Source: Paragorgia papillata (taxonomy: Eukaryota; Cnidaria; Anthozoa; Scleralcyonacea; Coralliidae). Taken from it: a stretch of DNA of 64,000 bases. The DNA lies in NCBI GenBank assembly GCA_035771165.1, contig JAWNZC010000473.1, forward strand, positions 4,037,001 to 4,101,000, read 5' to 3'. The notes below the pieces were generated by a model that saw only the letters and a list, made by a program, of their open reading frames with translations, did no database searches and was not told the DNA's origin. Made by a program: the position numbers and the translations under genes. How positions within the stretch are numbered: the first letter of the stretch is position 1; each line of letters opens with the position of its first letter. This document shows, one piece after another, positions 6,717-48,641 of this stretch.

Positions 6717-7437
6717 TGCGAGCTTTACTGTGCTGCGTTGTTTTGACCAGTTCTCATGCGGGCAAAATTATCGTCAGTCATCCACGAACATGATAAGTGA
6801 TAAATATATTTGATATAAAATGCCAATTTTCAAGTTGCCAGTTCAATCAGTCATATAGATTACTATAATAGAAATAGGAACTTTTCTTGCCTTCCCTTTT
6901 ATCGATAATCGATAAAATAAATTTAATAGTTTATGTTTATATTCATAACTTCACAGCGTGTTAAGTATTCTAATCAGGATTATAACATTCCGCAAATATT
7001 GAGATTACATTCACAAAATAACATGCAGGTGCATGCTTAAACCTTAAACCTTAATATTAAATCCCAGTTCTAACTCTAACCCTAGCTCTAATAAACCTAA
7101 AAATGTGAGGAGAAAGATTAAAGCAAAAGAAGAAGAAAATTATATGAAGTTACAAAAGCGATATGACCGGAACCCAACGGCTCGTATAACATCAAATTTC
7201 TCCACGATCCTTCATGTATAGGTATAGGGTCTCTTAGACTTTAAAAACGCGTAACGGTTGTTGCGCAGTCTGAATGGACTTGGCACTGCTACATTATATT
7301 GCCATGATCGTACTTTGATCAGAGCTTGATGTGATGTGATGTGATGTATTTGACATTTGTTATGTTTTTAAACAGACCAGACGGTAGACCGTAGACACGA
7401 GGCCCGACAGAACTAACGCATGAGTTGTACTTGTTCA

Positions 7438-7838
7438 TGGCCTACGCTAAACGTCGCACAATTGACGAACTTAATTCGAATTAACTTCATCAGTAATGCG
7501 ACGTAAATTGGACGTCGAGTTCAGTCGAATTTATATGTTTTTACTTGGACGCGTTGAGCCTGAAAACGATTTCTCGAAACATCATAACATGGCGGCTGGC
7601 GCCGAATTGTCACAGACAGAAGAGAAAGATTTAATTCGACGAGACGATAATTCGTCATGTAACTCGAACACGCATCGATCTTCGCATTTATATACGTCTG
7701 ACGAATTTAATTGCCCAGACGAATTTAATTCATGTGTCGAATTTAATCGAGTTATACGTCGCAGTTTCGTCGAATAAAATTCAAACAATTAAATTCGTCT
7801 GAATTAAATTCGTCTATTGTGCAACGTTTAGCGCAGGC
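7438..7838. mobile_element. MITE with about 40-bp inverted ends (copy 2)
   Basis: Second copy of the 4921-5321 element, carried along by the segmental duplication. Its ends are better matched to each other (GCTAAACGTCGCACAATTGA / TATTGTGCAACGTTTAGC). Confidence 0.7.
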
Positions 7839-8001
7839 CTATTATGAATTGTATGTTCAATTTGGTGTCCTCGTGAACGCTGGTAATATCGTAGGTCCGT
7901 ATGATCGATAGGCCCTGAAAGCTGCAGAAACCACTCAGACCAGACTATATAGTGTCCTGTTATAGCATGCATGTGCTCTGAAATCCAACTAGACTTTAAC
8001 T

Positions 8002-10241
8002 ACAATCCTGGACAAAATTGTTGGGCCACTTTGCCGATTTTGACGATTTTCGCATAGTGTCCCAAGCACTTTTGGCCAGGATTGTCTGAAAATGACGAAT
8101 TAAACAAAATCGAAGAAAAAAACAATTTGGCGGCGGCGATTCTGCGCAGTTTGCTCGAAAATGACATAAATACGCTCCCACATGCATGACCAACAAATTG
8201 TTTGTGGGGTATAGAAGGTTTGGTGAATATGTAAATTAAATAGAGCTCTCGTGCGGGTGGTACCGGTGCGGGTGGGAACTCTGCAGAGACTCTGCTCCAG
8301 TGATCCCTTCCCCATTGAGGGGGTAAGGGGGAGCAGAGATGGGGGCTCTTTTATTAAACTGTATATATTTTGCAATGTTACAAAGTTAAAAAGCTGTGTT
8401 TTATTGAAAAAATCGTAAACTCGTCATTTTCAGACAATCCTGGACAAAATTGTTGGGCCACTTTGCCGATTTTGACGATTTTCGCATAGTGTCCCAAGCA
8501 CTTTTGGCCAGGATTGTCTGAAAATGACGAATTAAACAAAATCGAAGAAAAAAACAATTTGGCGGCGGCGATTCTGCGCAGTTTGCTCGAAAATGACATA
8601 AATACGCTCCCACATGCATGACCAACAAATTGTTTGTGGGGTATAGAAGGTTTGGTGAATATGTAAATTAAATAGAGCTCTCGTGCGGGTGGTACCGGTG
8701 CGGGTGGGAACTCTGCAGAGACTCTGCTCCAGTGATCCCTTCCCCATTGAGGGGGTAAGGGGGAGCAGAGATGGGGGCTCTTTTATTAAACTGTATATAT
8801 TTTGCAATGTTACAAAGTTAAAAAGCTGTGTTTTATTGAAAAATCGTAAACTCGTCATTTTCAGACAATCCTGGACAAAATTGTTGGGCCACTTTGCCGA
8901 TTTTGACGATTTTCGCATAGTGTCCCAAGCACTTTTGGCCAGGATTGTCTGAAAATGACGAATTAAACAAAATCGAAGAAAAAAACAATTTGGCGGCGGC
9001 GATTCTGCGCAGTTTGCTCGAAAATGACATAAATACGCTCCCACATGCATGACCAACAAATTGTTTGTGGGGTATAGAAGGTTTGGTGAATATGTAAATT
9101 AAATAGAGCTCTCGTGCGGGTGGTACCGGTGCGGGTGGGAACTCTGCAGAGACTCTGCTCCAGTGATCCCTTCCCCATTGAGGGGGTAAGGGGGAGCAGA
9201 GATGGGGGCTCTTTTATTAAACTGTATATATTTTGCAATGTTACAAAGTTAAAAAGCTGTGTTTTATTGAAAAATCGTAAACTCGTCATTTTCAGACAAT
9301 CCTGGACAAAATTGTTGGGCCACTTTGCCGATTTTGACGATTTTCGCATAGTGTCCCAAGCACTTTTGGCCAGGATTGTCTGAAAATGACGAATTAAACA
9401 AAATCGAAGAAAAAAACAATTTGGCGGCGGCGATTCTGCGCAGTTTGCTCGAAAATGACATAAATACGCTCCCACATGCATGACCAACAAATTGTTTGTG
9501 GGGTATAGAAGGTTTGGTGAATATGTAAATTAAATAGAGCTCTCGTGCGGGTGGTACCGGTGCGGGTGGGAACTCTGCAGAGACTCTGCTCCAGTGATCC
9601 CTTCCCCATTGAGGGGGTAAGGGGGAGCAGAGATGGAGGCTCTTTTATTAAACTGTATATATTTTGCAATGTTACAAAGTTAAAAAGCTGTGTTTTATTG
9701 AAAAATCGTAAACTCGTCATTTTCAGACAATCCTGGACAAAATTGTTGGGCCACTTTGCCGATTTTGACGATTTTCGCATAGTGTCCCAAGCACTTTTGG
9801 CCAGGATTGTCTGAAAATGACGAATTAAACAAAATCGAAGAAAAAAACAATTTGGCGGCGGCGATTCTGCGCAGTTTGCTCGAAAATGACATAAATACGC
9901 TCCCACATGCATGACCAACAAATTGTTTGTGGGGTATAGAAGGTTTGGTGAATATGTAAATTAAATAGAGCTCTCGTGCGGGTGGTACCGGTGCGGGTGG
10001 GAACTCTGCAGAGACTCTGCTCCAGTGATCCCTTCCCCATTGAGGGGGTAAGGGGGAGCAGAGATGGGGGCTCTTTTATTAAACTGTATATATTTTGCAA
10101 TGTTACAAAGTTAAAAAGCTGTGTTTTATTGAAAAATCGTAAACTCGTCATTTTCAGACAATCCTGGACAAAATTGTTGGGCCACTTTGCCGATTTTGAC
10201 GATTTTCGCATAGTGTCCCAAGCACTTTTGGCCAGGATTGT
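8002..10241. mobile_element. Tandem array of a 431-bp MITE unit inserted as one block at a TA site
   Basis: The unit starts at 8002, 8434, 8865, 9296, 9727 and 10158 (last copy only 84 bases). Each unit has an 84-base imperfect hairpin (ACAATCCTGG ... CCAGGATTGT) followed by a 347-base stretch itself bounded by CTGAAAATGACGA and TCGTCATTTTCAG. Copies are almost identical. The block is flanked by TA on both sides, and unit 1 of the segmental duplication preserves the empty site AACTAGGGTC. Open frames of 175, 89 and 65 codons recur in each copy but are by-products of the repeat. Confidence 0.85.
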
Positions 10242-10393
10242 AGGGTCTACTACTAGTAAACTTACCGTCAGGTCCGTCAATTGTATAAAGATTAAACTGG
10301 TCGTTTCCTTGTTTGTTCTTATTGAAATCTAAAGATTTAGAAAATCAGATCCTGTCTTTTTATTTGAACGACTGGTAAATAGGTGTTGGCGAC

Positions 10394-10711
10394 CCAGACT
10401 GGAAAGTTTGTAAAATGCGCAACGGGAATCAAATTTCGGCCGCCATTTTGCGCGGGCATCTCGTGAAAATTGCGCGGGCTCGCGCGGGAAAATAAGTCGT
10501 TTCCAGGGCGGTCGCCAATAAAATGGCGGCTACAATCGAATTTTCATGCAGTTTTCGCCGAATCTGCGTTAAAAGTCCGCGATCACAGGCAATTTTTCGA
10601 AAAATTGCGCGGCCACTACATTTTTTACGAAAATTGCGCCGCCGCGGGAAATTGTCGTGAAAAATCGCGCAACGGAAATATCCGTTGCGCGATACAAACT
10701 TTCCAGTCTGG
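10394..10711. mobile_element. hAT-type MITE, 318 bp, with 8-bp target duplication
   Basis: Perfect inverted ends CCAGACTGGAAAGTTTG / CAAACTTTCCAGTCTGG are flanked by TTGGCGAC at 10386-10393 and 10712-10719. Unit 1 shows the empty site (TTGGCGTCCAGC). The interior is unusually rich in CG compared with its surroundings. No coding capacity. Confidence 0.9.
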
Positions 10712-11489
10712 TTGGCGACCAGCTTAGCTACACAAAAAGAACAACGGAAGTTTGTGATTACTCGAGACGTCAGAACATGCATGCAGGAAGAGATTGGTCA
10801 GGCGTTTTAGTAAAACACCGAACAGCGGAACACCGGAACAGCGGAACACCGGAACAGTGGAACAGCAAAAAAATGGAACAAGTATAATAATAAGAGTTTG
10901 AGTGACAACCTCGTACCCAGGGTCTTATCTCGGCTCCCCCGCCCCCGCCCACCGCTGCGAAAAGACCCTCAAAATAAATTTAGTGTGGGTAGGGTGGTAC
11001 AAAGCTTTCTCGACTTACCGACCGGAGTAGTGTTTATACAAAACGCAAAACATCTGGCCAGATGAAATGTCACGACTCACGAAAGGTGCACAACGGCTTG
11101 GAGAAACAATCCGAAACGAGATATAATTTAATAAGAATGCCAAAGTCTCAAAGATCAATATTTTGCTGGCTTTGTAGCGCTGGCGACATGTGTTATTGAT
11201 GGGAGAATATTCGTCTTAAGCATTCGAATCGCGAGGCTTTTAACTGGACGTATTCACTTAAATATAACGGCAGCTTTCACGTGTGGTATTCAACAACGTA
11301 CAGGTGAAACACATACGTATTTTATTGTTTATATTGAGAGTTTGAAACAGTCTTCCATTTCATTATCCACTGTGAGCTTTACTGTGCTGCGTTGTTTTGA
11401 CCAGTTCTCATGCGGACAAAATTATCGTCAGTCATCCACGAACATGATAAGTGATAAATATATTTGATATAAAATGCCAATTTTCAAGT

Positions 11490-12374
11490 TCATTTTAAAA
11501 AAGGTTAGTCGATATCCGTACCTATTATATTTTAAACAATTGGCGAGGAACTATAATTTAATATGACGTGTTATTAGTCCGAAAAGCGGCGGGTATTTAG
11601 GTTGTTGCGTTTAAAACGATCAAAACTAAAAGATACGTAACAAGTTAACTTGAACGGGGGTTTCTTTATCGGACAAGAAGTTTGTGACAGCAAAGAAGCA
11701 GAAAAATCGATAAGACTCGCCCGCTTTCTTGAAGTCTACTGAAAATACTATTTCTTTAAGTAAACAACACAGCGCATTCAGAAATACAGACATGACAACA
11801 AAGGTTCAACATTTCACCTTTGCCTTATTAAATGTGTCTAGTGTCTTGCTATAGCATTATCAGGGCCGTAGCGAGGGGGGGTATTGGGGGGTGCAGCACC
11901 CCCCCCCAACTTTTACAAAATAGCAATATTCGGAAAACTCACAGGTCTATTCGGAAAATTGGCACCTTTTTCTTTAAGACTATTTTGAAAGATTTGTCAA
12001 AATCTACTGATTAAATGAAAAATAAACGTACTGGTATGTGGTAACAGAAAACTTGTCGGTCGAATTTAATACAATAATACTTACACATTAATTACGTTGT
12101 CTAAAGTCTCCATTCTCGTTCCCAGTGCCCGCCACACAAACGTGGGCTCTGGGAATGTGAATATTGCTACTTGCAAGGCTCCCACGGGTCCCGTCGTCAC
12201 ACGACCTGACCTTTTGTGCAATTGTTTTAGAATTTATTATATGGATAAAATGTAGTACCGTTACTACAGTAAGTAACTGCATGGTAATAAAATAGTTGTT
12301 GTTGTTGTTGTTGTTGTTGTCTCTGTCATTTTGGCAGTTGGCAAAGTTTTGTGATTATTAAATACATGAATATT
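11490..12374. other. Intergenic sequence with a transposon end and a GTT microsatellite
   Basis: CAGGGCCGTAGCGAGG near 11862 followed by runs of G and C resembles the end of a hAT-like element, but no matching second end is visible. A short piece near 12107-12170 resembles the CTCGTTCCCAGAGCCC family seen intact at 39042-39448. A (GTT)n tract occupies about 12295-12320. No gene supported. Confidence 0.5.
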
Positions 12375-22860: not shown

Positions 22861-23334
22861 GAACAAGACAACCCCGTGAAGTTAGCTGCCAATTCGCCAG
22901 CTGCCAATTCACTGCCAATTAAGATAGCTGCCAATTCGGCACGGCAATGTTTCGCAATGGCGCTTCCAGGGGGGCGCGGTCGAGCAGCAGTCTCGCTTCG
23001 CAGACCAATATTTCGCCGGTCTTTTAACTCATTCAATACAACTTTAACACAAAATAATCATTTACCGTCGATAATTTAGGACATTTACGTTCGTACAAAC
23101 TACATTTCTTCAAGTAAAATTATGATTTAAGAATGCTAGACTTTAATCCCATTCTCTCCATATTAAACCTATTCAGACTTAATAACAAACAAGCCGCGCT
23201 CCATCTAAATAATTTTCTGCTCGGTAGATAGCGAATCCAAATATACCGTTCGATTCCTTATACAATTCTGCGTCTAGCGATATTAAATATGTGATTTCAA
23301 TTATTTTTCTAAATTTTCTGAACATCTATTTTGT

Positions 23335-25455
23335 AACGCGCTCTTGCTGACTCAGATCAAATGACACTTTGATTTGCCAACAAAATATTTTTTGCACTGC
23401 AGACAGAGATTCTGTAAATGGCATTAGATTCCTTGTTAAATTCTGCATAGGACAGTGTACGAAACGAATGTTAAACTGTAAACAAAGTAATTTATTTATA
23501 TTTGTTAGTATGATCGTCACTTAGCGCGCGCTTCCTGACTCAGATCAAATGACACCTTGACTTGCCAGCAAAATATTTTCTGCACGGTAGACGGAGATTC
23601 TGTTAACGGCATTAGCTTCCTTGTTAAATTCTGCATAGGACAGTGTACGAAACGAATGTTAAACCGTAAACAAAGTAATTTATTTATATTTTTTAATATG
23701 ATCGTCACTTAGCGCGCGCTTCCTGACTCAGATCAAATGACACCTTGATTTGCCAACAAAATATTTTCTGCACGGTAGACGGAGATTCTGTAAACGGCAT
23801 TAGATTCCTTGTTAAATTCTGCATAGGACAGTGTACGAAACGAATGTTAAACTGTAAACAAAGTAATTTATTTATATTTTTTAATATGATCGTCACCTAG
23901 CGCGCGCTTCGTCACTCAGATCAAATGACACCTTGACTTGCCAACAAAATATTTTCTGCACGGTAGACGGAGATTCTGTAAACGGGATTAGATTCCTTGT
24001 TAAATTCTGCATAGGACAGTGTACGAAACGAATGTTAAACCGTAAACAAAGTAATTTATTTATATTTTTTAATATGATCGTCACTTAGCGCGCGCTTCGT
24101 CACTCAGATCAAATGACACCTTGACTTGCCAACAAAATATTTTTTGCACGGTAGACGGAGATTCTGTAAACGGGATTAGATTCCTTGTTAAATTCTGCAT
24201 AGGACAGTGTACGAAACGAATGTTAAACTGTAAACAAAGTAATTTATTTATATTTGTTAGTATGATCGTCACTTAGCGCGCGCTTCCTGACTCAGATCAA
24301 ATGACACCTTGACTTGCCAACAAAATATTTTCTGCACCGTAGACGGAGATTCTGTTAACGGCATTAGATTCCTTGTTAAATTCTGCATAGGACAGTGTAC
24401 GAAACGAATGTTAAACTGTAAACAAAGTAATTTATTTATATTTTTTAATATGATCGTCACTTAGCGCGCGCTTCGTCACTCAGATCAAATGACACCTTGA
24501 CTTGCCAACAAAATATTTTTTGCACGGTAGACGGAGATTCTGTAAACGGGATTAGATTCCTTGTTAAATTCTGCATAGGACAGTGTACGAAACGAATGTT
24601 AAACTGTAAACAAAGTAATTTATTTATATTTGTTAGTATGATCGTCACTTAGCGCGCGCTTCCTGACTCAGATCAAATGACACCTTGACTTGCCAACAAA
24701 ATATTTTCTGCACCGTAGACGGAGATTCTGTTAACGGCATTAGATTCCTTGTTAAATTCTGCATAGGACAGTGTACGAAACGAATGTTAAACTGTAAACA
24801 ATGTAATTTATTTATATTTTTTAATATGATCGTCACTTAGCGCTTGCTTGCTGACTCAGATCAAATGACACCTTGATTTGCCAACAAAATATTTTCTGCA
24901 CGGTAGACGGAGATTCTGTAAACGGCATTAGATTCCTTGTTAAATTCTGCATAGGACAGTGTACGAAACGAATGTTAAACCGTAAACAAAGTAATTTATT
25001 TATATTTTTTAATATGATCGTCACTTAGCGCGCGCTTCCTGACTCAGATCAAATAACACCTTGATTTGCCAACAAAATATTTTCTGCACAGTAGAGGGAG
25101 ATTCTGTAAACGGCATTAGATTCCTTGTTAAATTCTGCATAGGACAGTGTACGAAACAAATGTTAAACTGTAAACAAAGTAATTTATTTATATCTTTTAA
25201 TATGATCGTCACTTAGCGCTTGCTTGCTGACTCAGATCAAATGACACCTTGATTTGCCAACAAGATATTTTCTGCACGGTAGACGGAGATTCTGTAAACG
25301 GCATTAGATTCCTTGTTAAATTCTGCATAGGACAGTGTACGAAACGAATGTTAAACTGTAAACAAAGTAATTTATTTATATTTTTTAGTATGATCGTCAC
25401 TTAGCGCGCGCTTCCTGACTCAGATCAAATGACACCTTGATTTGCCAACAACTGT
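23335..25455 (-). repeat. 188-bp satellite array, left arm, about 11.3 copies
   Basis: Units start every 188 bases (for example 23517, 23705, 23893 ... 25209) in minus orientation. Each contains a 63-codon frame starting GTG and ending TGA, with GTGA shared between neighbours. Because 188 is not a multiple of three, frames shift from unit to unit and no long fusion forms. Unit variants (Q/D, R/Q, V/I positions) alternate. I regard the small frames as by-products of array homogenisation. Confidence 0.92.
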
Positions 25456-25699
25456 GAAACAAAGTAATTTATACGCAGCGACTAAAAGATCATAATTAAA
25501 AATAAAATTTTTAATATGTATGCACGTAATTTAATTCTGATTTTGATTGAAGGATGTCGTATTTTTTGAATTGTTGAGGTTGCAATGATACATCACTTGT
25601 TCTTCTTGGTTTACCTACAATTAAAAATTTCAATTATAGGTTTTCCTTCTATTTGAAATTTTATTTTAGTTTTAAGTGTTGTTTGTTGGCTTGTCTGGT

Positions 25700-27082
25700 T
25701 TACCAAAATTCTGGTTGCACTTGTTCCAAAGCTTCTTTTCTGGTGATTTTTTTTACTCTGTTAGCACTAATGCCACAGCTTCGGGTAGAAGGATTAGAAA
25801 TATGTAATAATTTCTTTGGTAGTAAAATTCATAGAAAAGAGATAAGTGCAGTTGAAAATGTAATGAGGAAAATCCCTTACAACTAGACATTAAGCAGTTA
25901 AATAAAATTCGGCGCAGAAAACTAAATAGGATATTTATGCATCTTACTTGTTTTTGTTGCTTGCATTCGGCCAAAGTTGAAGATTATAGTTGATTGTGAA
26001 CGGAGGCAGGAAAAAGGCTTGCGGATCTCTGCAATATGTTGGATAACTACAATTAATGATACAACCTTTATACCTCTGTTTGCAATAATGTTATGGTGTG
26101 AGTTTACGTGCTTTGGTTCCTATTAATATTGTCGACAAACAAGCACAAACCATGTAGTATTGTTAAATTTTGCAGTACATATAATAGCCGTCGTGGTCAT
26201 TCGTCAATGTCGTTATCGTTCTTATCTTTGTCTTTATCACCTTATCCTTGTCTCTATCGGTATTACCGTTTTTGTAATTATTTTCTTTAGAACTGTTACC
26301 TTTTCCGTTTCACTCTAACTTTTGTTTGGATCAATGACATTAGCGTTTCCGATACAGCATCTAGCACCTGATTAACGAGAAAGGCGGAAAATATTACCGC
26401 TGAATCATTTTAACGTCTCATGTGACTGTGCATATCTGAAATATAATTTATCTTGAAAATACCTCATCTGTAAGGTCAGAAAACACAAATGTCTGGGTCC
26501 TCTTCCTGATGCCTTTGTGCTCCAGAAAATCGAAGTGCGCTTGCTTTATCCAGTCCCATTCATCTATTTTTGCTCTGTATAATTATGCAATCAAGAAAGT
26601 CAAACATAAGGAAGACACAGAAGATTCTACATGCTTAATAAATATTTCCAGCGTATGTATCACCGGCAGCATTATTTAAAATTCAATGGCTTGAAATAAC
26701 ACAGCTTACGTTTCTTTTCTCATTGCGCTGAATTTTTGAAAATAGGAAAATTGCCTTTGTATCTAAAAGAAACCAATGAATACTAAACTCAATTCTGTAT
26801 TGATCATGTGTTGTTACTCCCGGTTAAACGAGTAGTTAACGTTAGGAACAGCATATAATGAGAATGAGAAAGAATCAGGTCATAGCTAACCAGTTGCAGT
26901 TGACAGTTATAACTACAGTTAGCAGTAATACTTACATACTCGGCGACAAGCGATTCTTTTCCGGTCCAGAATAAAGAAACGTTGTCATCTTCTGACGTTC
27001 TTTCAGTCCCTTCGCTGTAAAATGCCATATGTTAATCTGTCTGTCTGTCCGTCCGTCCGTCCGTCCGTCCGTCCGTCCGTCC

Positions 27083-27130
<48 letters not shown>

Positions 27131-28406
27131 GCCTGCCTTCCCGCCTGTGCTTGTCTGTATGCATGTGTGTCCCGTCCAATTTTCTATCTCTCCCGTCCGC
27201 CTCTCTCTCTGTCTGCTTGTAATTTTCTTTTCCTTTTTCTTTCCACTCTCTCTTTCCTTTTATCTTCTTCATCTTGTTATCCTTTTTACTTTACTTTCTT
27301 CGCATGTTTGTCGGTATGCTATGTTTTTATTTCTGCATTTTTTATCATTACAACGTTATTCTGAATACCTTGTGTCACTGTTGTTAGCTTGATCCAACAT
27401 AAGCGTCGAAGTTCTGACCTGTACAATATAAATTATTGTGTGACCCGTGATTTTGCATTTTTACCTAAACAGCCATTAAAATTTAAAACATTTTGTATTT
27501 GTCTACTTTACCTTGGACTCCACTTGATTTCCATTGTCTGCAGCTTCCCTGTAATGTAATATTAAACACATTGGTGAACGTAACTTACACAATATCGACA
27601 TGTGTACAACATAAAAAATATACTTAAAATTTCATCATTGTTATATATACCTGTTCTTAGACAAATAAAATTTAATCCATAACCGCATTCGCGTCATGTC
27701 ACAAATAAAGACGCCGCAATCATCTAAATTTTTTTGTTGCGGAACCTGAATATTAGAAATATGGGTTTAACTAATTTTCTTAATGTATATATTAACGGTT
27801 TGCGTTGGTACGCAATTGAAATGATAAACAATTTACTTCGCGCGACAGATAGAAATACTTTAATACAATGCTGGTTAGTGGGACATACACCTTTATAGCA
27901 GGAACGATCCACTCCAAATTGACAACCGCATTGGCATTGGGTTCACAACGCGCAATTTCTTTCTCTAACCACTTCCTACCAATTTGACGTGCATAGAAAT
28001 TAAGAAATAAAGCATTATTGTATTTATATTATTTATATAGAATATTAAGAACAATTATTATATGTATTTATATATGTTTATTTGCATGTAATAATTTCAG
28101 TTGTTTTTAAAGGTTTATTTCTTAAATACGGTATTACTATACACCTTAAAGTTCCCAACACAAATTCATCACCTATCCTTTCTGTCATAGAATCTAACAC
28201 AGCCATGTTCACAATGCCACAATTCAATTGTTCTATATTAAAAAACTTATAACAATGTATGTATAAGAAGCATATATGTAACAGGGACATCTTGCAAGTA
28301 CACAGAATAATATACTTACTGCTGATCTCCAATGTTGCCGCAAGCATATTGGAACTATAATTAAATCTTTTCGAGAAGATTTACCTGTTAAAGAAAGGCC
28401 ATGCAT
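25700..28406 (-). CDS. Ulp1/SENP-like C48 cysteine peptidase, 13 exons, inside the 12.8-kb element
   Basis: Read by eye from splice sites on the minus strand. Exons: 28406-28385, 28354-28320, 28245-28145, 27975-27891, 27745-27651, 27548-27512, 27418-27369, 27014-26936, 26762-26710, 26574-26463, 26367-26300, 26028-25948, 25757-25700. All junctions keep phase and the last exon ends in TAA, giving about 291 residues. The exons spell the C48 peptidase signature in order: VPICLRQHW (catalytic His), MAVLDSM (Asp) and VPQQKNLDDCGVF (oxyanion Gln, nucleophile Cys). Such enzymes cleave SUMO/ubiquitin-like conjugates and are carried by several transposon groups, including some Mutator-like elements. 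The C-terminal ~180 residues are unfamiliar. The first exon is uncertain; the 28245 acceptor has a weak pyrimidine tract. A CTGT/CCGT microsatellite lies in one intron. Confidence 0.78.
27036..27131. repeat. CCGT/CTGT tetranucleotide microsatellite
   Basis: A (CTGT)n-(CCGT)n-(CTGT)n tract, lying in an intron of the Ulp1-like gene. It creates spurious long frames on both strands. Confidence 0.95.
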
Positions 28407-28759
28407 CTTACTAAAACATCGTGCATTTCTCTCGAAAGGCTAGTGTTTGCACAGCTATTTTGAATTTTTTTTTAACTTCGCTCAAATTTTCCGTGCGTCT
28501 GCTATAAACAAACTAGGAACTAACCAAACGGTATTCAGTTACTACCGCACCAAATAGGCCAAATCGAGAAATAGTTATTCTCACACATCATTAGATATTC
28601 ATAGCACTTCGGCCAATGAGATGTCCTGATTTAAGTCACGTGTATATACCTTGGAAACTCAGTCCAAATCAGAAGCTTAATTTATGCAAGTGGGCAGGGC
28701 TTTGAAGCTGAGGGAAATTGACGGGAAAACAATAGATATGTAAATTGTAAATTTGAATA

Positions 28760-28854
28760 CTGTATGTAGAAATCGTTTCTAAATACAGTAAACTGTATTT
28801 AGAAATTATTTCTAAATACAGTTTACTGTATTTAGAAAATATTTCTAAATACAG
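28760..28854. repeat. Three consecutive 29-base hairpins at 33-base period
   Basis: CTGTATNTAGAAA..TTTCTAAATACAG occurs at 28760-28788, 28793-28821 and 28826-28854, each a near-perfect palindrome, joined by TAAA and TTTA spacers. It sits between the Ulp1-like gene start and the end of the recombinase-like pseudogene. Confidence 0.85.
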
Positions 28855-28959
28855 TGTTCAAAGATATATATATATATTCATTTCAACAGTGAGACCAAGC
28901 ACTCACAGTTCATTACGCAAATAACATATTACAAACACGTTTTACCCTTTTAAACTCAA

Positions 28960-29851
28960 CTACTGTTTCGCGTTAAACGAAATGTTAACAGTGCAATTAT
29001 TAAATGTATTACTCGACAACATCAACTGTTCAGGAGCAACATTTCGCTGCACCTGATTATCAAATTCAGACCAGTCATATTCACTCAACAACGCATCCAG
29101 TGCTTCATCTGCTGTGTCATAATTCAGTTCTTTCTTGTCATTTACCTCCTTAATAGAAAGAACCTCGTCATCCTTCAATACGCATGGTCCAACACTGCTT
29201 GATACAGCCATTCTCTGCTCTTTATCGGCCTTCTCGTACGCAAATAAAGCAGACGAAATATGGCCATCGCTCGCGTATTAGTTTTTCCTCGTGCTTTCTT
29301 GAAATAAATTTGTAGCTGTAGTTACCCGAAGACAGTGAGCTGTCTTTGTCTCTAGACCGGCTTCTTTCATTTTTCAAAAACTCATTAATAATTCATGAGG
29401 AAACACAAAGGAAATCAGTGCCATGTCCGTGGTTTTATACCTGATAAAACTTCTTGCGTCAGAAAGGATACTTATGAACATACAATTTTATATAAAGAAT
29501 ACTAATGAACATACAATTTTATATAAAGAATACTAATGAACATAACATCCAATAACGAATCGTTTTTGAAGCCATTCAAAACACTCGCATCACGTGTTTT
29601 ATCAGATCTAAAACACACGGGCTGCGCCCTCGTGGTTTTAAATCTGATAAAACACTCCTGCTCGTGTTTTAAATATTACATAATCTGTTTTACTCGGCCG
29701 AAAGTTAAATGCTTCGTCAATTCTTTCTAACCCCCTAACCAAAGAGATATACTGCTTAAACATATCAACAAGACATGGCTCATGTTCGCCGTCATTATCG
29801 GGGTGACAATAATGTGTCACAACTGTTGCTTTCTTCTTTAGATCTTTCAAG
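28960..29851 (-). pseudogene. Tyrosine-recombinase-like (DUF3504 / KIAA1958-type) gene fragment
   Basis: Read on the minus strand. The first part (29851-29673) encodes HPDNDGEHEPCLVDMFKQYI and a FNFRPSKTDYVIF stretch. After a 288-base MITE insertion (29385-29672) the frame resumes (NEFLKNERSRSRD...KHEEKLIRER). It then needs a one-base shift to reach DGHISSALFAYEKADKEQR, which carries the GHxS and Tyr features of this Crypton-derived family. It ends FNNCTVNISFNAKQ at 28960. The 5' end is cut off by the satellite array. Truncation, insertion and frameshift make it a dead capture; family assignment is from motif memory. Confidence 0.65.
29385..29672. mobile_element. MITE flanked by TTAA, inserted in the recombinase-like pseudogene
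   Basis: TTAA borders both ends (29385-29388 and 29669-29672). The element contains TAATAATTCATGAGG near the left and a palindrome (GTTTTATCAGATCTAAAACAC / CTCGTGGTTTTAAATCTG) near the right. Excluding it leaves the recombinase-like frame continuous across the join. A relative lies at about 39606-39880. Confidence 0.75.
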
Positions 29852-32800
29852 CCTCCGTCTACCGTGCAGAAAATATTTTGTTGGCAAGTCAAGGTGTCAT
29901 TTGATCTGAGTCAGGAAGCGCGCGCTAAGTGACGATCATACTAAAAAATATAAATAAATTACTTTGTTTACAGTTTAACATTCGTTTCGTACACTGTCCT
30001 ATGCAGAATTTAACAAGGAATCTAATGCCGTTTACAGAATCTCCGTCTACCGTGCAGAAAATATTTTCTTGGCAAGTCAATGTGTCATTTGATCTGAGTC
30101 AGGAAGCGCGCGCTAAGTGACGATCATACTAAAAAATATAAATAAATTACTTTGTTTACAGTTTAACATTCGTTTCGTACACTGTCCTATGCAGAATTTA
30201 ACAAGGAATCTAATGCCGTTTACAGAATCTCCGTCTACCGCACAGAAAATATTTTCTTGGCAAGTCAATGTGTCATTTGATCTGAGTCAGGAAGCGCGCG
30301 CTAAGTGACGATCATACTAAAAAATATAAATAAATTACTTTGTTTACAGTTTAACATTCGTTTCGTACACTGTCCTATGCAGAATTTAACAAGGAATCTA
30401 ATGCCGTTTACAGAATCTCCGTCTACCGTGCAGAAAAATATTTTGTTGGCAAGTCAATGTGTCATTTGATCTGAGTCAGGAAGCGCGCGCTAAGTGACGA
30501 TCATACTAAAAAATATAAATAAATTACTTTGTTTACAGTTTAACATTCGTTTCGTACACTGTCCTATGCAGGATTTAACAAGGAATCTAATGCCGTTTAC
30601 AGAATCTCCGTCTAACGTGCAGAAAATATTTTGTTGGCAAGTCAAGGTGTCATTTGATCTGAGTCAGGAAGCGCACGCTAAGTGACGATCATACTAAAAA
30701 ATATAAATAAATTACTTTGTTTACAGTTTAATATTCGTTTCGTACACTGTCCTATGCAGAATTTAACAAGGAATCTAATGCCGTTTACAGAATCTCCGTC
30801 TACCGTGCAGAAAATATTTTGTTGGCAAGTCAATGTGTCATTTGATCTGAGTCAGGAAGCGCGCGCTAAGTGACGATCATACTAAAAAATATAAATAAAT
30901 TACTTTGTTTACAGTTTAACATTCGTTTCGTACACTGTCCTATGCAGGATTTAACAAGGAATCTAATGCCGTTTACAGAATCTCCGTCTAACGTGCAGAA
31001 AATATTTTGTTGGCAAGTCAAGGTGTCATTTGATCTGAGTCAGGAAGCGCGCGCTAAGTGACGATCATACTAAAAAATATAAATAAATTACTTTGTTTAC
31101 AGTTTAATATTCGTTTCGTACACTGTCCTATGCAGAATTTAACAAGGAATCTAATGCCGTTTACAGAATCTCCGTCTACCGTGCAGAAAATATTTTGTTG
31201 GCAAATCAAGGTGTCATTTGATCTGAGTCAGGAAGCGCGCGCTAAGTGACGATCATACTAAAAAATATAAATAAATTACTTTGTTTACAGTTTAACATTC
31301 GTTTCGTACACTGTCCTATGCAGAATTTAACAAGGAATCTAATGCCGTTTACAGAATCTCCGTCTACCGCACAGAAAATATTTTCTTGGCAAGTCAATGT
31401 GTCATTTGATCTGAGTCAGGAAGCGCGCGCTAAGTGACGATCATACTAAAAAATATAAATAAATTACTTTGTTTACAGTTTAACATTCGTTTCGTACACT
31501 GTCCTATGCAGGATTTAACAAGGAATCTAATGCCGTTTACAGAATCTCCGTCTAACGTGCAGAAAATATTTTGTTGGCAAGTCAAGGTGTCATTTGATCT
31601 GAGTCAGGAAGCGCGCGCTAAGTGACGATCATACTAAAAAATATAAATAAATTACTTTGTTTACAGTTTAATATTCGTTTCGTACACTGTCCTATGCAGA
31701 ATTTAACAAGGAATCTAATGCCGTTTACAGAATCTCCGTCTACCGTGCAGAAAATATTTTGTTGGCAAGTCAATGTGTCATTTGATCTGAGTCAGGAAGC
31801 GCGCGCTAAGTGACGATCATACTAAAAAATATAAATAAATTACTTTGTTTACAGTTTAACATTCGTTTCGTACACTGTCCTATGCAGGATTTAACAAGGA
31901 ATCTAATGCCGTTTACAGAATCTCCGTCTAACGTGCAGAAAATATTTTGTTGGCAAGTCAAGGTGTCATTTGATCTGAGTCAGGAAGCGCGCGCTAAGTG
32001 ACGATCATACTAAAAAATATAAATAAATTACTTTGTTTACAGTTTAATATTCGTTTCGTACACTGTCCTATGCAGAATTTAACAAGGAATCTAATGCCGT
32101 TTACAGAATCTCCGTCTACCGTGCAGAAAATATTTTGTTGGCAAATCAAGGTGTCATTTGATCTGAGTCAGGAAGCGCGCGCTAAGTGACGATCATACTA
32201 AAAAATATAAATAAATTACTTTGTTTACAGTTTAACATTCGTTTCGTACACTGTCCTATGCAGAATTTAACAAGGAATCTAATGCCGTTTACAGAATCTC
32301 CGTCTACCGCACAGAAAATATTTTCTTGGCAAGTCAATGTGTCATTTGATCTGAGTCAGGAAGCGCGCGCTAAGTGACGATCATACTAAAAAATATAAAT
32401 AAATTACTTTGTTTACAGTTTAACATTCGTTTCGTACACTGTCCTATGCAGAATTTAACAAGGAATCTAATGCCGTTTACAGAATCTCCGTCTACCGTGC
32501 AGAAAATATTTTGTTGGCAAGTCAATGTGTCATTTGATCTGAGTCAGGAAGCGCGCGCTAAGTGACGATCATACTAAAAAATATAAATAAATTACTTTGT
32601 TTACAGTTTAACATTCGTTTCGTACACTGTCCTATGCAGGATTTAACAAGGAATCTAATGCCGTTTACAGAATCTCCGTCTAACGTGCAGAAAATATTTT
32701 GTTGGCAAGTCAAGGTGTCATTTGATCTGAGTCAGGAAGCGCGCGCTAAGTGACGATCATACTAAAAAATATAAATAAATTACTTTGTTTACAGTTTAAT

Positions 32801-35190
32801 ATTCGTTTCGTACACTGTCCTATGCAGAATTTAACAAGGAATCTAATGCCGTTTACAGAATCTCCGTCTACCGTGCAGAAAATATTTTGTTGGCAAATCA
32901 AGGTGTCATTTGATCTGAGTCAGGAAGCGCGCGCTAAGTGACGATCATATTAAAAAATATAAATAAATTACTTTGTTTGCAGTTTAACATTCGTTTCGTA
33001 CACTGTCCTATGCAGAATGTAACAAGGAATCTAATGCCGTTTACCGAATCTCCGTCTACCGTGCAGAAAATATTGTGTTGGCAAATCAAGGTGTCATTTG
33101 ATCTGAGTCAGCAAGCGCGCGCTATGTGACGATCATATTAAAAAATATAAATAAATTACTTTGTTTACAGTTTAACATTCGTTTCGTACACTGTCCTATG
33201 CAGGATTTAACAAGGAATCTAATGCCGTTTACAGAATCTCCGTCTAACGTGCAGAAAATATTTTGTTGGCAAGTCAAGGTGTCATTTGATCTGAGTCAGG
33301 AAGCGCGCGCTAAGTGACGATCATACTAAAAAATATAAATAAATTACTTTGTTTACAGTTTAACATTCGTTTCGTAAACTGTCCGATGCAGAATTTAACA
33401 AGGAATCTAATGCCGTTTACAGAATCTCCGTCTACCGTGCAGAAAATATTTTGTTGGCAAATCAAGGTGTCATTTGATCTGAGTCAGGAAGCGCGCGCTA
33501 AGTGACGATCATATTAAAAAATATAAATAAATTACTTTGTTTGCAGTTTAACATTCGTTTCGTACACTGTCCTATGCAGAATGTAACAAGGAATCTAATG
33601 CCGTTTACAGAATCTCCGTCTACCGTGCAGAAAATATTTTGTTGGCAAATCAAGGTGTCATTTGATCTGAGTCAGCAAGCGCGCGCTATGTGACGATCAT
33701 ATTAAAAAATATAAATAAATTACTTTGTTTACAGTTTAACATTCGTTTCGTACACTGTCCTATGCAGAATGTAACAAGGAATCTAATGCCGTTTACAGAA
33801 TCTCCGTCTACCGTGCAGAAAATATTTTGTTGGCAAATCAAGGTGTCATTTGATCTGAGTCAGCAAGCAAGCGCTAAGTGACGATCATATTAAAAAATAT
33901 AAATAAATTACTTTGTTTACAGTTTAACATTCGTTTCGTACACTGTCCTATGCAGAATTTAACAAGGAATCTAATCCCGTTTACAGAATCTCCGTCCACC
34001 GTGCAGAAAATATTTTGTTGGCAAATCAATGTGTCATTTGATCTGAGTGACGAAGCGCGCGCTAAGTGACGATCATATTAAAAAATATAAATAAATTACT
34101 TTGTTTACAGTTTAACATTCGTTTCGTACACTGTCCTATGCAGAATTTAACAAGGAATCTAATCCCGTTTACAGAATCTCCGTCCACCGTGCAGAAAATA
34201 TTTTGTTGGCAAATCAATGTGTCATTTGATCTGAGTGACGAAGCGCGCGCTAAGTGACGATCATATTAAAAAATATAAATAAATTACTTTGTTTACAGTT
34301 TAACATTCGTTTCGTACACTGTCCTATGCAGAATTTAACAAGGAATCTAATCCCGTTTACAGAATCTCCGTCCACCGTGCAGAAAATATTTTGTTGGCAA
34401 ATCAATGTGTCATTTGATCTGAGTGACGAAGCGCGCGCTAAGTGACGATCATATTAAAAAATATAAATAAATTACTTTGTTTACAGTTTAACATTCGTTT
34501 CGTACAATGTCTTATGCAGAATTTAACAAGGAATCTAATCCCGTTTACAGAATCTCCGTCCACCGTGCAGAAAATATTTTGTTGGCAAATCAATGTGTCA
34601 TTTGATCTGAGTGACGAAGCGCGCGCTAAGTGACGATCATATTAAAAAATATAAATAAATTACTTTGTTTACAGTTTAACATTCGTTTCGTACACTGTCC
34701 TATGCAGAATTTAACAAGGAATCTAATCCCGTTTACAGAATCTCCGTCCACCGTGCAGAAAATATTTTGTTGGCAAATCAATGTGTCATTTGATCTGAGT
34801 GACGAAGCGCGCGCTAAGTGACGATCATATTAAAAAATATAAATAAATTACTTTGTTTACAGTTTAACATTCGTTTCGTACACTGTCCTATGCAGAATTT
34901 AACAAGGAATCTAATCCCGTTTACAGAATCTCCGTCCACCGTGCAGAAAATATTTTGTTGGCAAATCAATGTGTCATTTGATCTGAGTGACGAAGCGCGC
35001 GCTAAGTGACGATCATATTAAAAAATATAAATAAATTACTTTGTTTACAGTTTAACATTCGTTTCGTACAATGTCTTATGCAGAATTTAATAAGGAATCT
35101 AATGCCGTTTACAGAATCTCCGTCTACCGTGCAGAAAATATTTTGTTGGCAAATCAAGGTGTCATTTGATCGGAGTCAGCAAGAGCGCGT
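29852..35190 (+). repeat. 188-bp satellite array, right arm, about 28.4 copies
   Basis: Same unit as the left arm, inverted. Variant order shows higher-order structure: unit types repeat with a 5-unit period (about 940 bp) around 30682-32377, and with a 3-unit period (564 bp) around 32938-33693 and 34254-35200. One unit (about 30305-30493) carries an extra A and loses its small frame. The array is 2.5 times longer than the left one, so it has grown or shrunk independently since insertion. Confidence 0.92.
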
Positions 35191-35667
35191 TACAAAATAG
35201 ATGTTCAGAAAATTTAGAAAAATAATTGAAATCACATATTGAATATCGCTAGACGCAGAATTGTATAAGGAATCGAACGGTATATTTGGATTCGCTATCT
35301 ACCGAGCAGAAAATTATTTAGATGGAGCGCGGCTTGTTTGTTATTAAGTCTGAATAGGTTTAATATGGAGAGAATGGGATTAAAGTCTAGCATTCTTAAA
35401 TCATAATTTTACTTGAAGAAATGTAGTTTGTACGAACATAAATGTCCTAAATTATCGACGGTAAATGATTATTTTGTGTTAAAGTTGTATTGAATGAGTT
35501 AAAAGACCGGCGAAATATTGGTCTGCGAAGCGAGACTGCTGCTCGACCGCGCCCCCCCCTGGAAGCGCCATTGCGAAACATTGCCGTGCCGAATGGGCAG
35601 CTATCTTAATTGGCAGTGAATTGGCAGCTGGCGAATTGGCAGCTAACTTCACGGGGTTGAACAAGAC

Positions 35668-40395: not shown

Positions 40396-41310
40396 TTAAA
40401 TGTCTGGTGGTATTTCCTTGAAGTTACACAATAAGTGCTTGTTTACATGGCGACAACTTGATAAAAGTTCATTTCTTTTGTTGAGTAGAGGGAATTTCTG
40501 AAATATAATATGAAATTTCTCAGTCAGGTAGAGTTCGCATCTTATAGATCCGCCTTCTCGATAAACACTTCCCTGAGAACCATGCACAAGTTCAGCCACA
40601 AGATTTTCAACCGTAACCAAGATTTTTCAACGCTAATGGTATTAACTGGTTTGTATCCTACCTTCACATTCTCGCGTCGTGAGACCTTGGTGATTCTTTC
40701 GGAAATACCTTTAACATATGGTAACAAAACGAAGCTGGATGAAGATTTTTCGGGTATTTTATCTTTGTCACTGAATCACATCTCTTGATAAAATCATACG
40801 GATAGCCATTCTCCCTGAGCACTTTCATAACATGTTTTCTTTCGGCTGCGTTTCCCAGCTCTAGCCTCTAGAGGATGGAATCTTTTCAGCTCTGTCCAAA
40901 AGTGTATTAACAACCGATTGTTTATGTGTGGTGGGGTGGTGAGAATTATAATCTAAATATTTGTCAGTATGAGAGGGTTTCCGATATATGTCTATTTGTA
41001 TTCGTCCCTGTTTTCTGGTGGTCATGCATGGTGTCTAAGAAAGGAAGTTGATTGTCCTTTTCTGTTTCAATGGTGGTAAACTGTATGTGAGGGTTGACAG
41101 AATTGACACGATGATGGAATTCCTATATATGTTCTGTTTTAATGCATGCATGGCTGTCATCCACAAATCTAAACAACCACTTCGGAGGATTTGGGGCAGA
41201 TGAAATGGCTAAATCTTCTATGTGTTCCATGACGATGTCGGCCATGGTTGCGCTTATGGGAGAACCCATAGCACATCCAAATATCTGTTTAAAGTATTCA
41301 CCGTTGTATG
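40396..41310 (-). pseudogene. Penelope-like reverse transcriptase remnant (Neptune/Poseidon-like)
   Basis: On the minus strand, starting near 41295, frames give CAMGSPISATMADIVMEHIE and WLFRFVDDSHAC (RT active-site DD). These are followed by IYRKP-type and YNSHHPTTHKQSVV segments, then LPYVKGISERITKV and FPLLNKRNELLSSCRHVNK. This order matches Penelope-group RT plus the linker before the endonuclease. It belongs to a different subfamily from the 37-39 kb copies. Frames are broken many times. Hammerhead motifs follow at its 3' side. Confidence 0.75.
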
Positions 41311-41451
41311 TAAGGAATCCCTATAGATCATAGGGATGCGCAAAAGTCAAAAAGCTTCAGAGGCATAAAAAGCTAGAGTACTCTAGCTTTTTATGCCTCT
41401 GAAGCTTTTTGACTTTTGCGCATCCCTATGATCTATAGGGATTCTTTACAT
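41308..41451. repeat. Near-perfect 144-base palindrome
   Basis: Two 72-base arms meet with no spacer between 41379 and 41380 (AGAGT|ACTCT). I see one mismatch (GGAATCC vs GATTCTT side). It overlaps the 5' edge of the Penelope-like remnant. Spacer-free palindromes are usually unstable, so it may be recent or an assembly artefact. Confidence 0.9.
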
Positions 41452-47547: not shown

Positions 47548-48641
47548 TCATAGTAAATTGTTGTCAATATCACATGGCTGTTTTAGTATGTGCATGGATA
47601 GTTTTTCTATTGGCATTCTGGGAGCTTGGATAAGTTTGTTTTGTACAAACTTTTGATGGCTGCTTGTCCAGCTGAGAATTGGCTTTATCTTGAGTGGGAA
47701 CCGGACTGCATGTCCCTGTCCATGCTCATTGTTAAGATAGTACCACCAATGTTCTGGAAGTGGCAAGCGAGACATATCTTGAATTGAGTACAGTCTATAC
47801 CCTTTGTGCTGGGAGTCCATACCTTTTCCATTGGTGGTATACCGCCAAATGTCCAGTTCCATATGAACGTATGTTGGGTTAGACGACTTGGACTTTAGAC
47901 TACACAGAATGCCTTCATAAAACTGGCGGCTAGCCTCATGCAGTCTTGAAGAGCACGGCTTTGGTGGACTTTCATAACCTCTGTAGGTAGAGAGTATTTG
48001 AGTCAGGGGAGTAGTTATTTGTGTTTCATATATATACAATACGCTAGCAATGTTTTGCCTGAATTCAATGTGAAGTATACTAAACAGACAGCATTAATAT
48101 TATATTTATCTATTAAGGGAGTCACTTGACATTTCTGACATATAAGACGGCAAAACTTTACTATGTATATAAGCTTTAAATTGTTTGAAAAATCGAATCT
48201 ATAAAGACTGAGATATTTCTCACTTCAAATATCTCAGTGAGATATTTGAAGTGAGAAATATCTCAGTCTTTATAGATAATCTCACCTTACTAATTCTTCA
48301 TTTAGATGATCACTAGGCTCCCACGTAGAGGTTTCTAGCGGCCAGCTTTCCCACTTGATAAGATATTCGTATTCCTTAGAAATATTAAACGAAAGATTAA
48401 ATATCAAGCTAATCCAAAAATATTTACAAAATATTTTAATAAAATTCGTAAAATGTAGAATTATCAAATGCAAGAATATCGAACTGACCTTGTTGACTCG
48501 CCGTCTCGATATAATCCTCTCAACCTGGTATGTTATCGGCAATGTTTTCCTCTTCTTTTTGGGTGCTGTATCGTAGAGTACGACGGACGAAAAACTATTT
48601 AACTGCTTGTAGTCAATCACACTTCTATTTCGAGCCGCCAT
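47548..48641 (-). CDS. Chromodomain protein, 3 exons, about 224 residues
   Basis: Minus-strand exons 48641-48489, 48374-48286 and 47980-47548 join in phase (0, then 2). The chromodomain is split by the first intron at about residues 38-80: YQVERIISRRRVNK then EYEYLIKWESWPLETSTWEP. It keeps the aromatic cage pattern (Tyr, the Trp of IKWESW, and the aromatic/Trp of TWEP region) and usually binds methylated histone tails. A Lys/Arg patch KKKRKT precedes it. The last exon (YESPPKPCSSRLHEASRQFY ... ELDIWRY ... HWWYYLNNE) has no family I recognise. Start chosen as the first Met before the chromodomain. It converges on the 42-46 kb gene. Confidence 0.8.
48199..48275. repeat. Perfect 38-base inverted repeat with one-base spacer
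   Basis: CTATAAAGACTGAGATATTT.. through ..ATATCTCA (48199-48236) is exactly mirrored at 48238-48275. It lies in the second intron of the chromodomain gene, starting about 10 bases past the 5' splice site on the transcribed strand, so the pre-mRNA would fold a 38-bp hairpin there. Confidence 0.92.

Follow-up and report, generated by a model that had tools for sequence, protein, structure and literature searches.

How satellite arrays are born and spread to new sites is an old question, and it is raised here by a 12.8-kb insertion in the window (the whole stretch of 64,000 nucleotides analysed), which consists of a perfect 9-bp duplication, arms of ~468 bp, two opposed arrays of 188-bp units and a 4.4-kb core. 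The insertion is probably a single member of a Foldback-like, non-autonomous family of DNA transposons; in this reading its arrays changed in length in place after insertion, and two other copies have become giant satellite loci.

Structure of the insertion

The duplicated 9 bp, GAACAAGAC, are present on the + strand of the window at 22861-22869 and 35659-35667 and nowhere else, immediately adjoining the outer side of AACCCCGTGAAG (starting at 22870) and CTTCACGGGGTT (ending at 35658), which bears out the perfect duplication at inverted ends proposed in an earlier, sequence-only reading of this DNA. The left arm (22870-23336, + strand), i.e. the flanking domain ahead of the array, and the right arm (35190-35658, - strand) are identical at 465 of 468 aligned bases over their first 470 bases, differing by 2 nt in the length of a G run and showing a 2-nt gap where the alignment was cut off. 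Three exact AGCTGCCAATTC motifs are clustered near the left end (22884-22937, + strand) and are mirrored at 35591-35644 by two exact motifs and one with a single mismatch. This cluster, which has expanded to a minisatellite with a period of ~26 bp in another copy (L067), may represent transposase-binding sites.

The ~460 bp of unique inverted repeat described in that reading agrees with the arms in length, but the arm is not entirely unique, since alignment against the units places a degenerate satellite-like unit at 23201-23287 (+ strand). Against the satellite, 23201-23271 forms a 71-bp degenerate unit with an alignment score of 42 (maximum 33 across 500 dinucleotide shuffles), while 23205-23287 is identical to the 197-bp unit of a sister subfamily at 63 of 83 positions, with a score of 66 (maximum 29 across 300 mononucleotide shuffles). 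The 188-bp unit matched the arm of that sister subfamily at only 17 of 21 positions (score 20), which is not significant.

With Tandem Repeats Finder, the left array (23337-25451, + strand) was measured at 11.2 copies and the right array (29853-35189, - strand) at 28.4, in opposite orientation and in line with the ~11 and ~28 units estimated earlier. Several unit types recur in the right array, and a comparison of register between the two arrays gave no standout offset (95.6-96.3% at offsets 0-16). When the window was scanned with Rfam and for tRNA genes, there were no matches at the thresholds applied.

The core between the arrays (25452-29852) measures 4,401 bp, in agreement with the 4.4 kb given for a gene-bearing core; the "gene", however, is a fragment. 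A six-frame Pfam scan of the core detected no transposase domain, and a PHD-finger transposase was likewise not found there. What the core does contain is a Crypton-type (PF12012) tyrosine-recombinase gene with a broken reading frame, of which a C-terminal piece lies at 28966-29370 (- strand; 85% identical to the corresponding part of P0003) and, by sequence comparison, an upstream piece at 29653-29852 (- strand), cut at the core/array junction. This fragment is a broken passenger. A Pfam Tet_JBP match in the core (E 0.0005, under its cut-off) was set aside because relatives carry PF12012. Nor does the element belong to the Cryptons, which are marked by an intact tyrosine recombinase and lack long inverted repeats, since its recombinase is a broken fragment and its inverted repeats are long.

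A multicopy family

The element belongs to a multicopy family in the 618-Mb anthozoan genome, with 74 exact matches to the 20-mer end and 337 matches to the 26-mer end at up to three mismatches (0 in the backwards control). The 74 matches would be misleading as a copy number, because many sit in other subtypes or inside another repeat that shares those 20 bases, often with GATCATTAGAC just before them. As so many 20-mer matches fall in that other repeat, an inner-arm tag of the window's subtype was preferred for counting; it has 54 sites, all listed, 27 per strand. In collections of viral contigs and genome contigs, the 20-mer end had no matches.

All 13 pairs of opposite-strand inner-arm neighbours up to 300 kb apart are convergent (i.e. 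they point inwards), at distances of 2.2 to 267 kb, and C311 has one more opposite-strand pair, whose members diverge and are separated by 1.15 Mb. By span, ten of the 13 paired copies measure 2 to 23 kb, C235 measures 50 kb, and two giants reach 143 and 268 kb; C87, provided that it is a single locus, may extend to at least 163 kb. The window's core recurs in C409 and, with parts missing, in C235, the pieces that align being 95-98% identical, and the left array/core junction is common to all three copies, with differing numbers of units. The C286 copy consists of ends and arrays without a core. Long terminal inverted repeats that hold internal tandem repeats, together with dispersed copies that carry target-site duplications, make the family one of Foldback-like DNA transposons. 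Over 10 kb that take in 100 bp of flank, the copies C467 and C87:1349438 are ~99.2-99.6% identical and probably alleles, for which reason their PriCT-2-type genes were rejected as independent support.

Both flanks could be read for 14 paired intervals, of which five have perfect duplications, three near-perfect ones and five none, while at C199 the target is a TA repeat, so that a duplication cannot be judged. The perfect ones are of 9 bp in the window and C265 and of 8 bp in C235, C466 and C88, against a simulated chance of ~4e-5 for an exact 8-10 bp duplication in random flank pairs. No matching duplication was seen at C286, C409, C311, C14a (6/9) and C14b, the pairing itself being uncertain for the last three. 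When 60 end readings were compared all against all (including seven second readings of the same end and excluding the two ends of the window), exact complementary flanks of at least 7 bp were found for C88, C235 and C466 only, each time between two convergent ends on one contig. The outermost bases of the window would also permit a 7-bp duplication with CAACCCC ends, but this is excluded by the C466 and C88 loci (duplications AAGCGTGG and GTTTATTT), where the base before AACCCC is not C. The family thus makes duplications of 8 or 9 bp, not the 7-bp type of Galileo. The search for further copies with these ends and duplications of their own, as suggested in the sequence-only reading, therefore succeeded (74 exact 20-mers, 337 26-mers and four further perfect duplications), and its claim that both arrays are parts of one mobile unit is upheld by the multicopy family and its other copies with ends and duplications.

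Giant satellite loci and the probable growth of arrays

The two giants, C466 (486.6-630.1 kb, 143 kb) and C88 (3082.5-3350.9 kb, 268 kb), both have convergent ends and perfect 8-bp duplications. All ten 200-bp probes taken inside them (six in C466, four in C88) were satellite (94-97.5%), it being understood that the giant arrays are known from such sampled probes and depend on the correctness of the assembly. All 54 inner-arm sites being listed, neither interval contains any besides those of its own ends. These loci lend good support to the earlier suggestion that the element could seed satellite DNA. Tags of the 188-bp unit number 4,239 genome-wide (0 in the backwards control) and, among the units listed, 12 of 12 contigs with units also hold an inner-arm site. 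It seems somewhat more likely than not that the 188-bp satellite of this genome resides mainly or exclusively within single transposon insertions that have grown, each large array being one event that retained both ends and the duplication.

For 308 of 358 units the nearest unit came from the same locus, compared with a mean of 67 and a maximum of 95 in label shuffles, which supports growth after insertion. This held for 97 of 98 units in C466, 72 of 73 in C235, 44 of 46 in C87, 56 of 75 in C286, 28 of 39 in the window and 10 of 13 in C88, but for only 1 of 13 in C409 and 0 of 1 in C265. Mean unit identity within the locus exceeded every between-locus value only in C235, C286, C466 and C87, whereas it was 96.3 in the window versus 96.5 to C286, 95.5 in C409 versus a between-locus value of 95.9, and 94.3 in C88, below 94.7 to C286; for C466 and C88, the comparison took in only units near their two ends.

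In the proposed mechanism, an end is built of a short end motif, the ~468-bp arm and the tandem 188-bp array, with passenger DNA or nothing between the two arrays. A transposase acting in trans would cut at AACCCC..., generating the 8-9 bp duplication upon insertion, and the arrays would then lengthen or shorten in place through unequal exchange or replication slippage.

It could instead be that the giants moved as long arrays, or arose by recombination among neighbouring copies. The direction of the units inside C466 changes more than once, a pattern not accounted for by simple growth; at five intervals no matching duplication was seen; the mean identity of C88 units within the locus is not higher than that to C286; and recombination is known for Foldback-like ends. 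Against this reading stand the perfect 8-bp duplications of both giants, the lack of any extra inner-arm site inside them and the nearest units coming mostly from the same locus; moreover, an element of this kind would not usually transpose as a unit of 143-268 kb. On balance such an origin is rather unlikely, and growth in place is preferred. That the inverted arrays are merely repeats misjoined during assembly is very improbable: inverted arrays of great length are hard to assemble, but wrong joins would not leave 8-9 bp duplications precisely where the two ends of several loci lie, nor would they yield one and the same array/core junction on three contigs.

Origin of the transposase

Among the copies examined, no transposase of the family's own was identified, and those transposase-like genes that copies do contain appear to have come in with nested inserts. 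In C330, the left arm is interrupted by a segment with a DDE_Tnp_4 (Harbinger-type) gene, which is taken as a nested insert; C330 also carries a Polinton integrase, and C88 a Helitron-type domain. The Polinton-type genes of C330 were rejected as an autonomous partner, as they form a separate element that is nested inside a 197-bp array, has AG..CT ends of its own and is flanked by duplicated ATTAAT (6 bp). Such ends and a 6-bp duplication are the hallmark of Polintons/Mavericks, to which the family itself, with AACCCC ends and 8-9 bp duplications, does not belong.

The target-site duplication of Mutator elements (MULEs) is ~8-11 bp, mostly 9 bp, although a length of 8-9 bp alone cannot separate MULEs from Merlin and others. 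A sharper form of the preferred explanation would be that the family is a non-autonomous member of the Mutator clan (Rehavkus- or Phantom/Foldback-type) mobilised by a MULE transposase encoded in the same genome, for which the chances appear about even. The 8-9 bp duplications fit, and at least 114 PF10551 (MULE) matches were found in this genome (150 of 303 candidates scored). None of the 114, however, falls within the 13 paired intervals or, on C395, C399 and C330, within the B-type pairs (compared by eye, listed ends), the nearest among the matches listed (C152:28556) lies 5.3 kb outside an end, and the core of the window gave no transposase in six frames. As the comparison of MULE matches with ends covered ~103 of the 337 ends, an autonomous copy may have escaped it. 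The full-length relative with a MULE-type transposase suggested as a check earlier was thus not found among the listed intervals, and the earlier assignment to the Mutator clan from the 9-bp duplication is compatible with the length (8-9 bp) but not established by it, that length not being exclusive to MULEs. Satellite or minisatellite repeats in or beside the ends, a trait of Rehavkus, are present here, and membership of Mutator/Rehavkus is plausible rather than proven. Published Foldback-like and Rehavkus elements combine repeat-bearing ends with duplications of 8-10 or 9 bp (PMC6446971, PMC10218199, PMC3169594, PMC4079207), and MULE groups with 9-11 bp duplications are tabulated in PMC6446971.

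A mover from another superfamily, i.e. Merlin or a P/Galileo-like element, is unlikely. Merlin makes 8-9 bp duplications and has an IS1595-type transposase, and P/Galileo-like elements have long repetitive ends. Sixteen PF12762 (Merlin-type) matches were found in the genome, one of which, a partial match, lies 2.8 kb to the inner side of a variant end with AACGCC (C461:2656216). The AACGCC variant is, however, found in a short repeat as well (C11, C321), so that the proximity may be due to chance. That a P-type element can have Foldback-like ends is known from Galileo, although its reported duplications are of 7 bp against 8-9 bp here (PMC3573991, PMC3688188).

Comparison with known systems

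The architecture itself is already known from Foldback, Tetris and Rehavkus-1_TC. Rehavkus-1_TC of Tribolium castaneum (9.5 kb) is described with a 164-bp satellite unit inside its inverted termini, mostly as five and eight monomers, and Rehavkus with 9-bp duplications and hosts among arthropods and annelids (PMC10218199, PMC6446971). The satellite unit and the 9-bp duplication are shared with the window's copy, while the arrays here are longer and the PHD-finger transposase encoded by Rehavkus was not found. In the Tm1 Mutator/Foldback family of root-knot nematodes, the duplications are mostly 9 bp (8-10) as well, but the units are of ~14 bp, at one to nine per end, and a transposase-bearing member is reported (PMC3169594). 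Galileo of Drosophila is similar in its long repetitive ends (one subfamily has ~210-bp units in tandem), its chimeric copies without matching duplications and its copies reduced to two ends, and differs in its P-element transposase, 7-bp duplications and two or three units per end (PMC3573991, PMC3688188).

In the literature searched, no single insertion was found that had grown beyond 100 kb with both ends and the duplication intact. Here, apparently single insertions form a size series that starts at a few kb and includes the giants of 143 and 268 kb, with the marks of transposition at both ends, which gives each satellite locus a defined start point, orientation and relatives. If the arrays are indeed grown insertions, the birth and growth of each locus would be traceable singly, and seeding, growth rate, within-locus homogenisation and between-locus exchange would become measurable, both in one genome and between individuals.

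Foldback transposons were proposed earlier as a source of satellites on the basis of Tetris of Drosophila virilis, a non-autonomous element with 8-10 bp duplications whose repeats form satellite-like arrays of up to 66 copies (PMC4079207). Tetris is likened to the present family by its structure: its long inverted ends run from an outer flanking domain through ~220-bp tandem repeats to a variable middle without a conserved gene, and part of the repeat is also present in the flanking domain, over 37 bp compared with ~71-83 bp here. The present family differs in its probably cnidarian host, in the broken recombinase fragment carried in its middle, and in its intervals of 143 and 268 kb, which are satellite wherever sampled and retain both ends and a perfect duplication.

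Structure of the element and its core

The element lies at 22861-35667 of the window, where the sequence-only reading had placed it, between the two plus-strand copies of the target-site duplication GAACAAGAC (left 22861-22869, right 35659-35667), for which an exact search found no third occurrence in the window (37.6% G+C over 64,000 bp of eukaryotic DNA). The inverted ends AACCCCGTGAAG... are oriented towards each other, and within the outer ~70 bp of each arm (i.e. the terminal stretch before the array) AGCTGCCAATTC occurs three times, exactly in the left arm and with one mismatch in one of the three right copies. The arms are identical at 465 of 468 aligned bases and differ by 2 nt in the length of a G run. 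They had been read as ~460 bp of unique inverted repeat, which holds for the inversion but not fully for the uniqueness, since the satellite unit aligns at 23201-23271 with a score of 42 (maximum 33 in 500 dinucleotide shuffles). Inside both arms lie the expected 188-bp arrays in opposite orientations, 11.2 units on the left and 28.4 on the right, around a core of 4,401 bp. Among 39 units there are 27 distinct types, and several types are repeated in the right array, which suggests a recent block duplication.

The core had been called gene-bearing. Gene pieces are indeed present, but they belong to a broken gene: a minus-strand gene is left in two pieces, separated by other sequence and with a disrupted frame, its first part being absent beyond the array junction. 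Its relatives (15 proteins at E <= 0.001) mostly carry PF12012 (13 of 15), which we take to be the Crypton-type tyrosine recombinase family. A six-frame Pfam search of the window core gave no transposase domain. The same core stands between the arrays of the copies on contigs C235 and C409, with 95-98% identity in the aligned pieces and with parts absent from C235. All three copies have their left array/core junction at the identical place; the right one is identical in C235 and C409 and different in the window, where the gene meets the satellite at a common CTCCGT. From the shared core and junctions it seems that core and arrays moved together, with the recombinase fragment as a probable passenger. 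Capture at a short shared sequence is described for animal TIR transposons in the available text of PMC8277862.

Copies across the genome

The search for further copies with these ends, proposed in the sequence-only reading, covered 617,864,297 bp in 473 contigs, the window being C473:4037001-4101000. It gave 74 exact matches to the 20-base end and, when as many as 3 mismatches were allowed, 337 matches to the 26-base end (180 on one strand and 157 on the other), the backwards controls giving 0 in both cases. Among the 56 exact matches whose flanks were read are end types A (188-bp arrays), B (~197-bp units), a few others, and a group with the 20 bases inside another repeat. In that repeat family (fetched stretches L002, L003, L032 and others) the 20-base end AACCCCGTGAAGTTAGCTGC is internal, often after GATCATTAGAC, and some copies resemble ~120-bp miniature elements with an AACGCC end.

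The tag marking the inner end of the type-A arm occurs at 54 sites, 27 per strand. On 13 contigs a site has an opposite-strand neighbour within 300 kb, and all 13 pairs face each other, with tag-to-tag spans of 2.2, 3.6, 4.7, 7.3, 7.9, 11.9 (window), 14.8, 15.7, 18.3, 22.5, 49.6, 142.5 and 267.4 kb; a further opposite-strand pair, on C311, points outwards with 1.15 Mb between its sites. Satellite units were found in the nine intervals whose insides were read (C88, C466, C235, C286, window, C409, C470, C199 and C152), the other four (C172, C145, C56, C250) being identified by their tags. The remaining 28 sites, among them three extra forward sites on C199, are without such a partner.

Both flanks were read for 14 paired intervals. 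The duplication is perfect at 9 bp in the window and C265, and at 8 bp in C235 (GTGCCCAC), C466 (AAGCGTGG) and C88 (GTTTATTT); it is near-perfect in C399 (8/9) and in C395 and C330 (an extra base in one of the two flanks). C199, with a TA repeat as target, was left out of the judgement, and five of the 14 (C286, C409, C311, C14a with 6/9, C14b) have no matching duplication; in C311, C14a and C14b the paired ends may come from different elements. In an all-against-all comparison of 60 end readings (7 of them repeat readings, the window's two ends left out), flanks complementary without mismatch over 7 bp or more occurred only in C88, C235 and C466. With dispersed copies bearing the same ends, several of them between perfect duplications, the main interpretation, that both arrays are parts of one mobile unit, stands. 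In the 2.3-kb C265 copy (L067:72-599) the end motif cluster is expanded to a minisatellite of ~26-bp period; the units of one side are A-like, those of the other a mixture of A and B.

Giant loci and probable growth in place

Two intervals are giant: C466 (486660-630044) and C88 (3082565-3350831), in which 6/6 and 4/4 200-bp probes, respectively, are satellite (94-97.5% identity), and within which none of the 54 type-A tag sites is additional to the ends. Unit direction runs from plus to minus in C88 and plus, minus, plus, minus in C466, which means that the C466 array is rearranged. Beyond the first ten units of C88, near the left end of this 268-kb locus (L028:3807-10000), come Helitron-type and OTU domain frames and an OB-fold protein. 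On C87 only the left end was found, at 7356736, with plus-strand units inside it and, among the matches listed, minus-strand units at 7408691-7420739 and 7510113-7519929; if one locus, it spans at least 163 kb. Over the whole genome the 42-base unit tag, with as many as 3 mismatches allowed, has 4,239 matches against 0 in the backwards control, which would amount to ~0.8 Mb or 0.13% of the assembly at 188 bp each. Among the matches listed, tags or units fall on 12 contigs (C88, C152, C199, C215, C235, C286, C348, C409, C466, C470, C473, C87), all 12 of which also bear an inner-arm site; only one arm was found on C215, C348 and C87.

When 358 units from the fetched stretches of eight loci were compared (C466, C88 and C87 by their outer parts only), 308 had their nearest neighbour in their own locus, against a mean of 67 and a maximum of 95 with shuffled labels. 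By locus this was 97/98 in C466, 72/73 in C235, 44/46 in C87, 56/75 in C286, 28/39 in the window, 10/13 in C88, 1/13 in C409 and 0/1 in C265. Mean identity within the locus exceeds every between-locus value in C235, C286, C466 and C87; units of the window, C409 and C88 are on average slightly closer to C286 than to their own locus. Judged from these unit sequences, the case for growth in place appears strongest in C466, C235 and C87 and weaker in C88, which slightly lowers our confidence in the best explanation overall; we nevertheless consider it quite probable that this is a Foldback-like transposon with arrays grown after insertion. Arm identity within one element (97.0-100%) overlaps the mean between elements (98.15%, 72 pairs), so that arm identity by itself gives no date for the copies.

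The element class is already known. In the sections available of the respective papers, Tetris (PMC4079207) shares the plan, down to a unit that resembles the flanking domain, and its arrays reach 66 units; in Rehavkus-1_TC (PMC10218199) the ends carry 164-bp units, and other Foldback-like elements are Tm1 (PMC3169594) and Galileo (PMC3573991, PMC3688188). The novelty lies in the series of sizes among insertions whose ends are intact: in the available text of the open-licence literature (also PMC6446971, PMC12628747, PMC13359780, PMC9659126, PMC12910113 and PMC8277862; Repbase reports lay outside the scope) no insertion with both ends and a duplication, grown beyond 100 kb, was found.

Candidate transposases and the sister subfamily

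In the genome, MULE-domain matches number at least 114, with 150 of 303 candidates scored, and Merlin-type matches number 16. Inspection by eye placed no MULE match of this set inside the 13 type-A intervals or the type-B pairs C395, C399 and C330, the nearest found among them being 5.3 kb outside an end on C152. On C461, a variant end has a partial Merlin-type match 2.8 kb to its inner side.

Units of ~197 bp make up part of the ends in a sister subfamily, which this genome contains as C395, C399, C330, C440 and the C87/C467 pair. This unit matches the window arm at the same place as the 188-bp unit (63/83 identical, score 66; maximum 29 in 300 mononucleotide shuffles). Its match to the 188-bp unit itself is weaker (44/62, score 34; maximum 28 in 300 shuffles); the 188-bp unit against the sister-subfamily arm gave only 17/21 identical, which is not significant. 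The simplest reading is that the units would be an old component of the ends, diverged along with the transposon lineages.

Several type-B copies hold further sequence. In C330 two segments look like later inserts. One (L015:151-3768), which has a YqaJ-like frame and one for a DDE_Tnp_4 (Harbinger-type) transposase, splits the left arm. The other is a Polinton-type element within the 197-bp array (L015:9070-9475 to L016:7272-7675); it has a chromodomain-bearing integrase, an A32-type ATPase and a deoxynucleoside kinase, AG..CT ends of 406 bp, and ATTAAT as its 6-bp duplication. C395 (L011/L012) has a ~1.75-kb repeat three times, with a 267-residue frame, interleaved with short 197-bp arrays. 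The C467 and C87 copies (L035, L026) are ~99.2-99.6% identical including flanks and are probably alleles; they contain genes, one with a PriCT-2 primase domain, which are element genes or nested.

Other features of the window

Two window proteins have named relatives in the octocoral Paramuricea clavata and in Desmophyllum pertusum, which points weakly to an anthozoan host. A direct segmental duplication (93-98% identity) occupies 4292-11490, one copy of which includes 5.2 tandem units of 431 bp that are nearly identical to one another (8002-10241). Near-perfect palindromes lie at 41308-41451 (144 bp, 98.6%) and 48197-48277 (81 bp, 98.8%).
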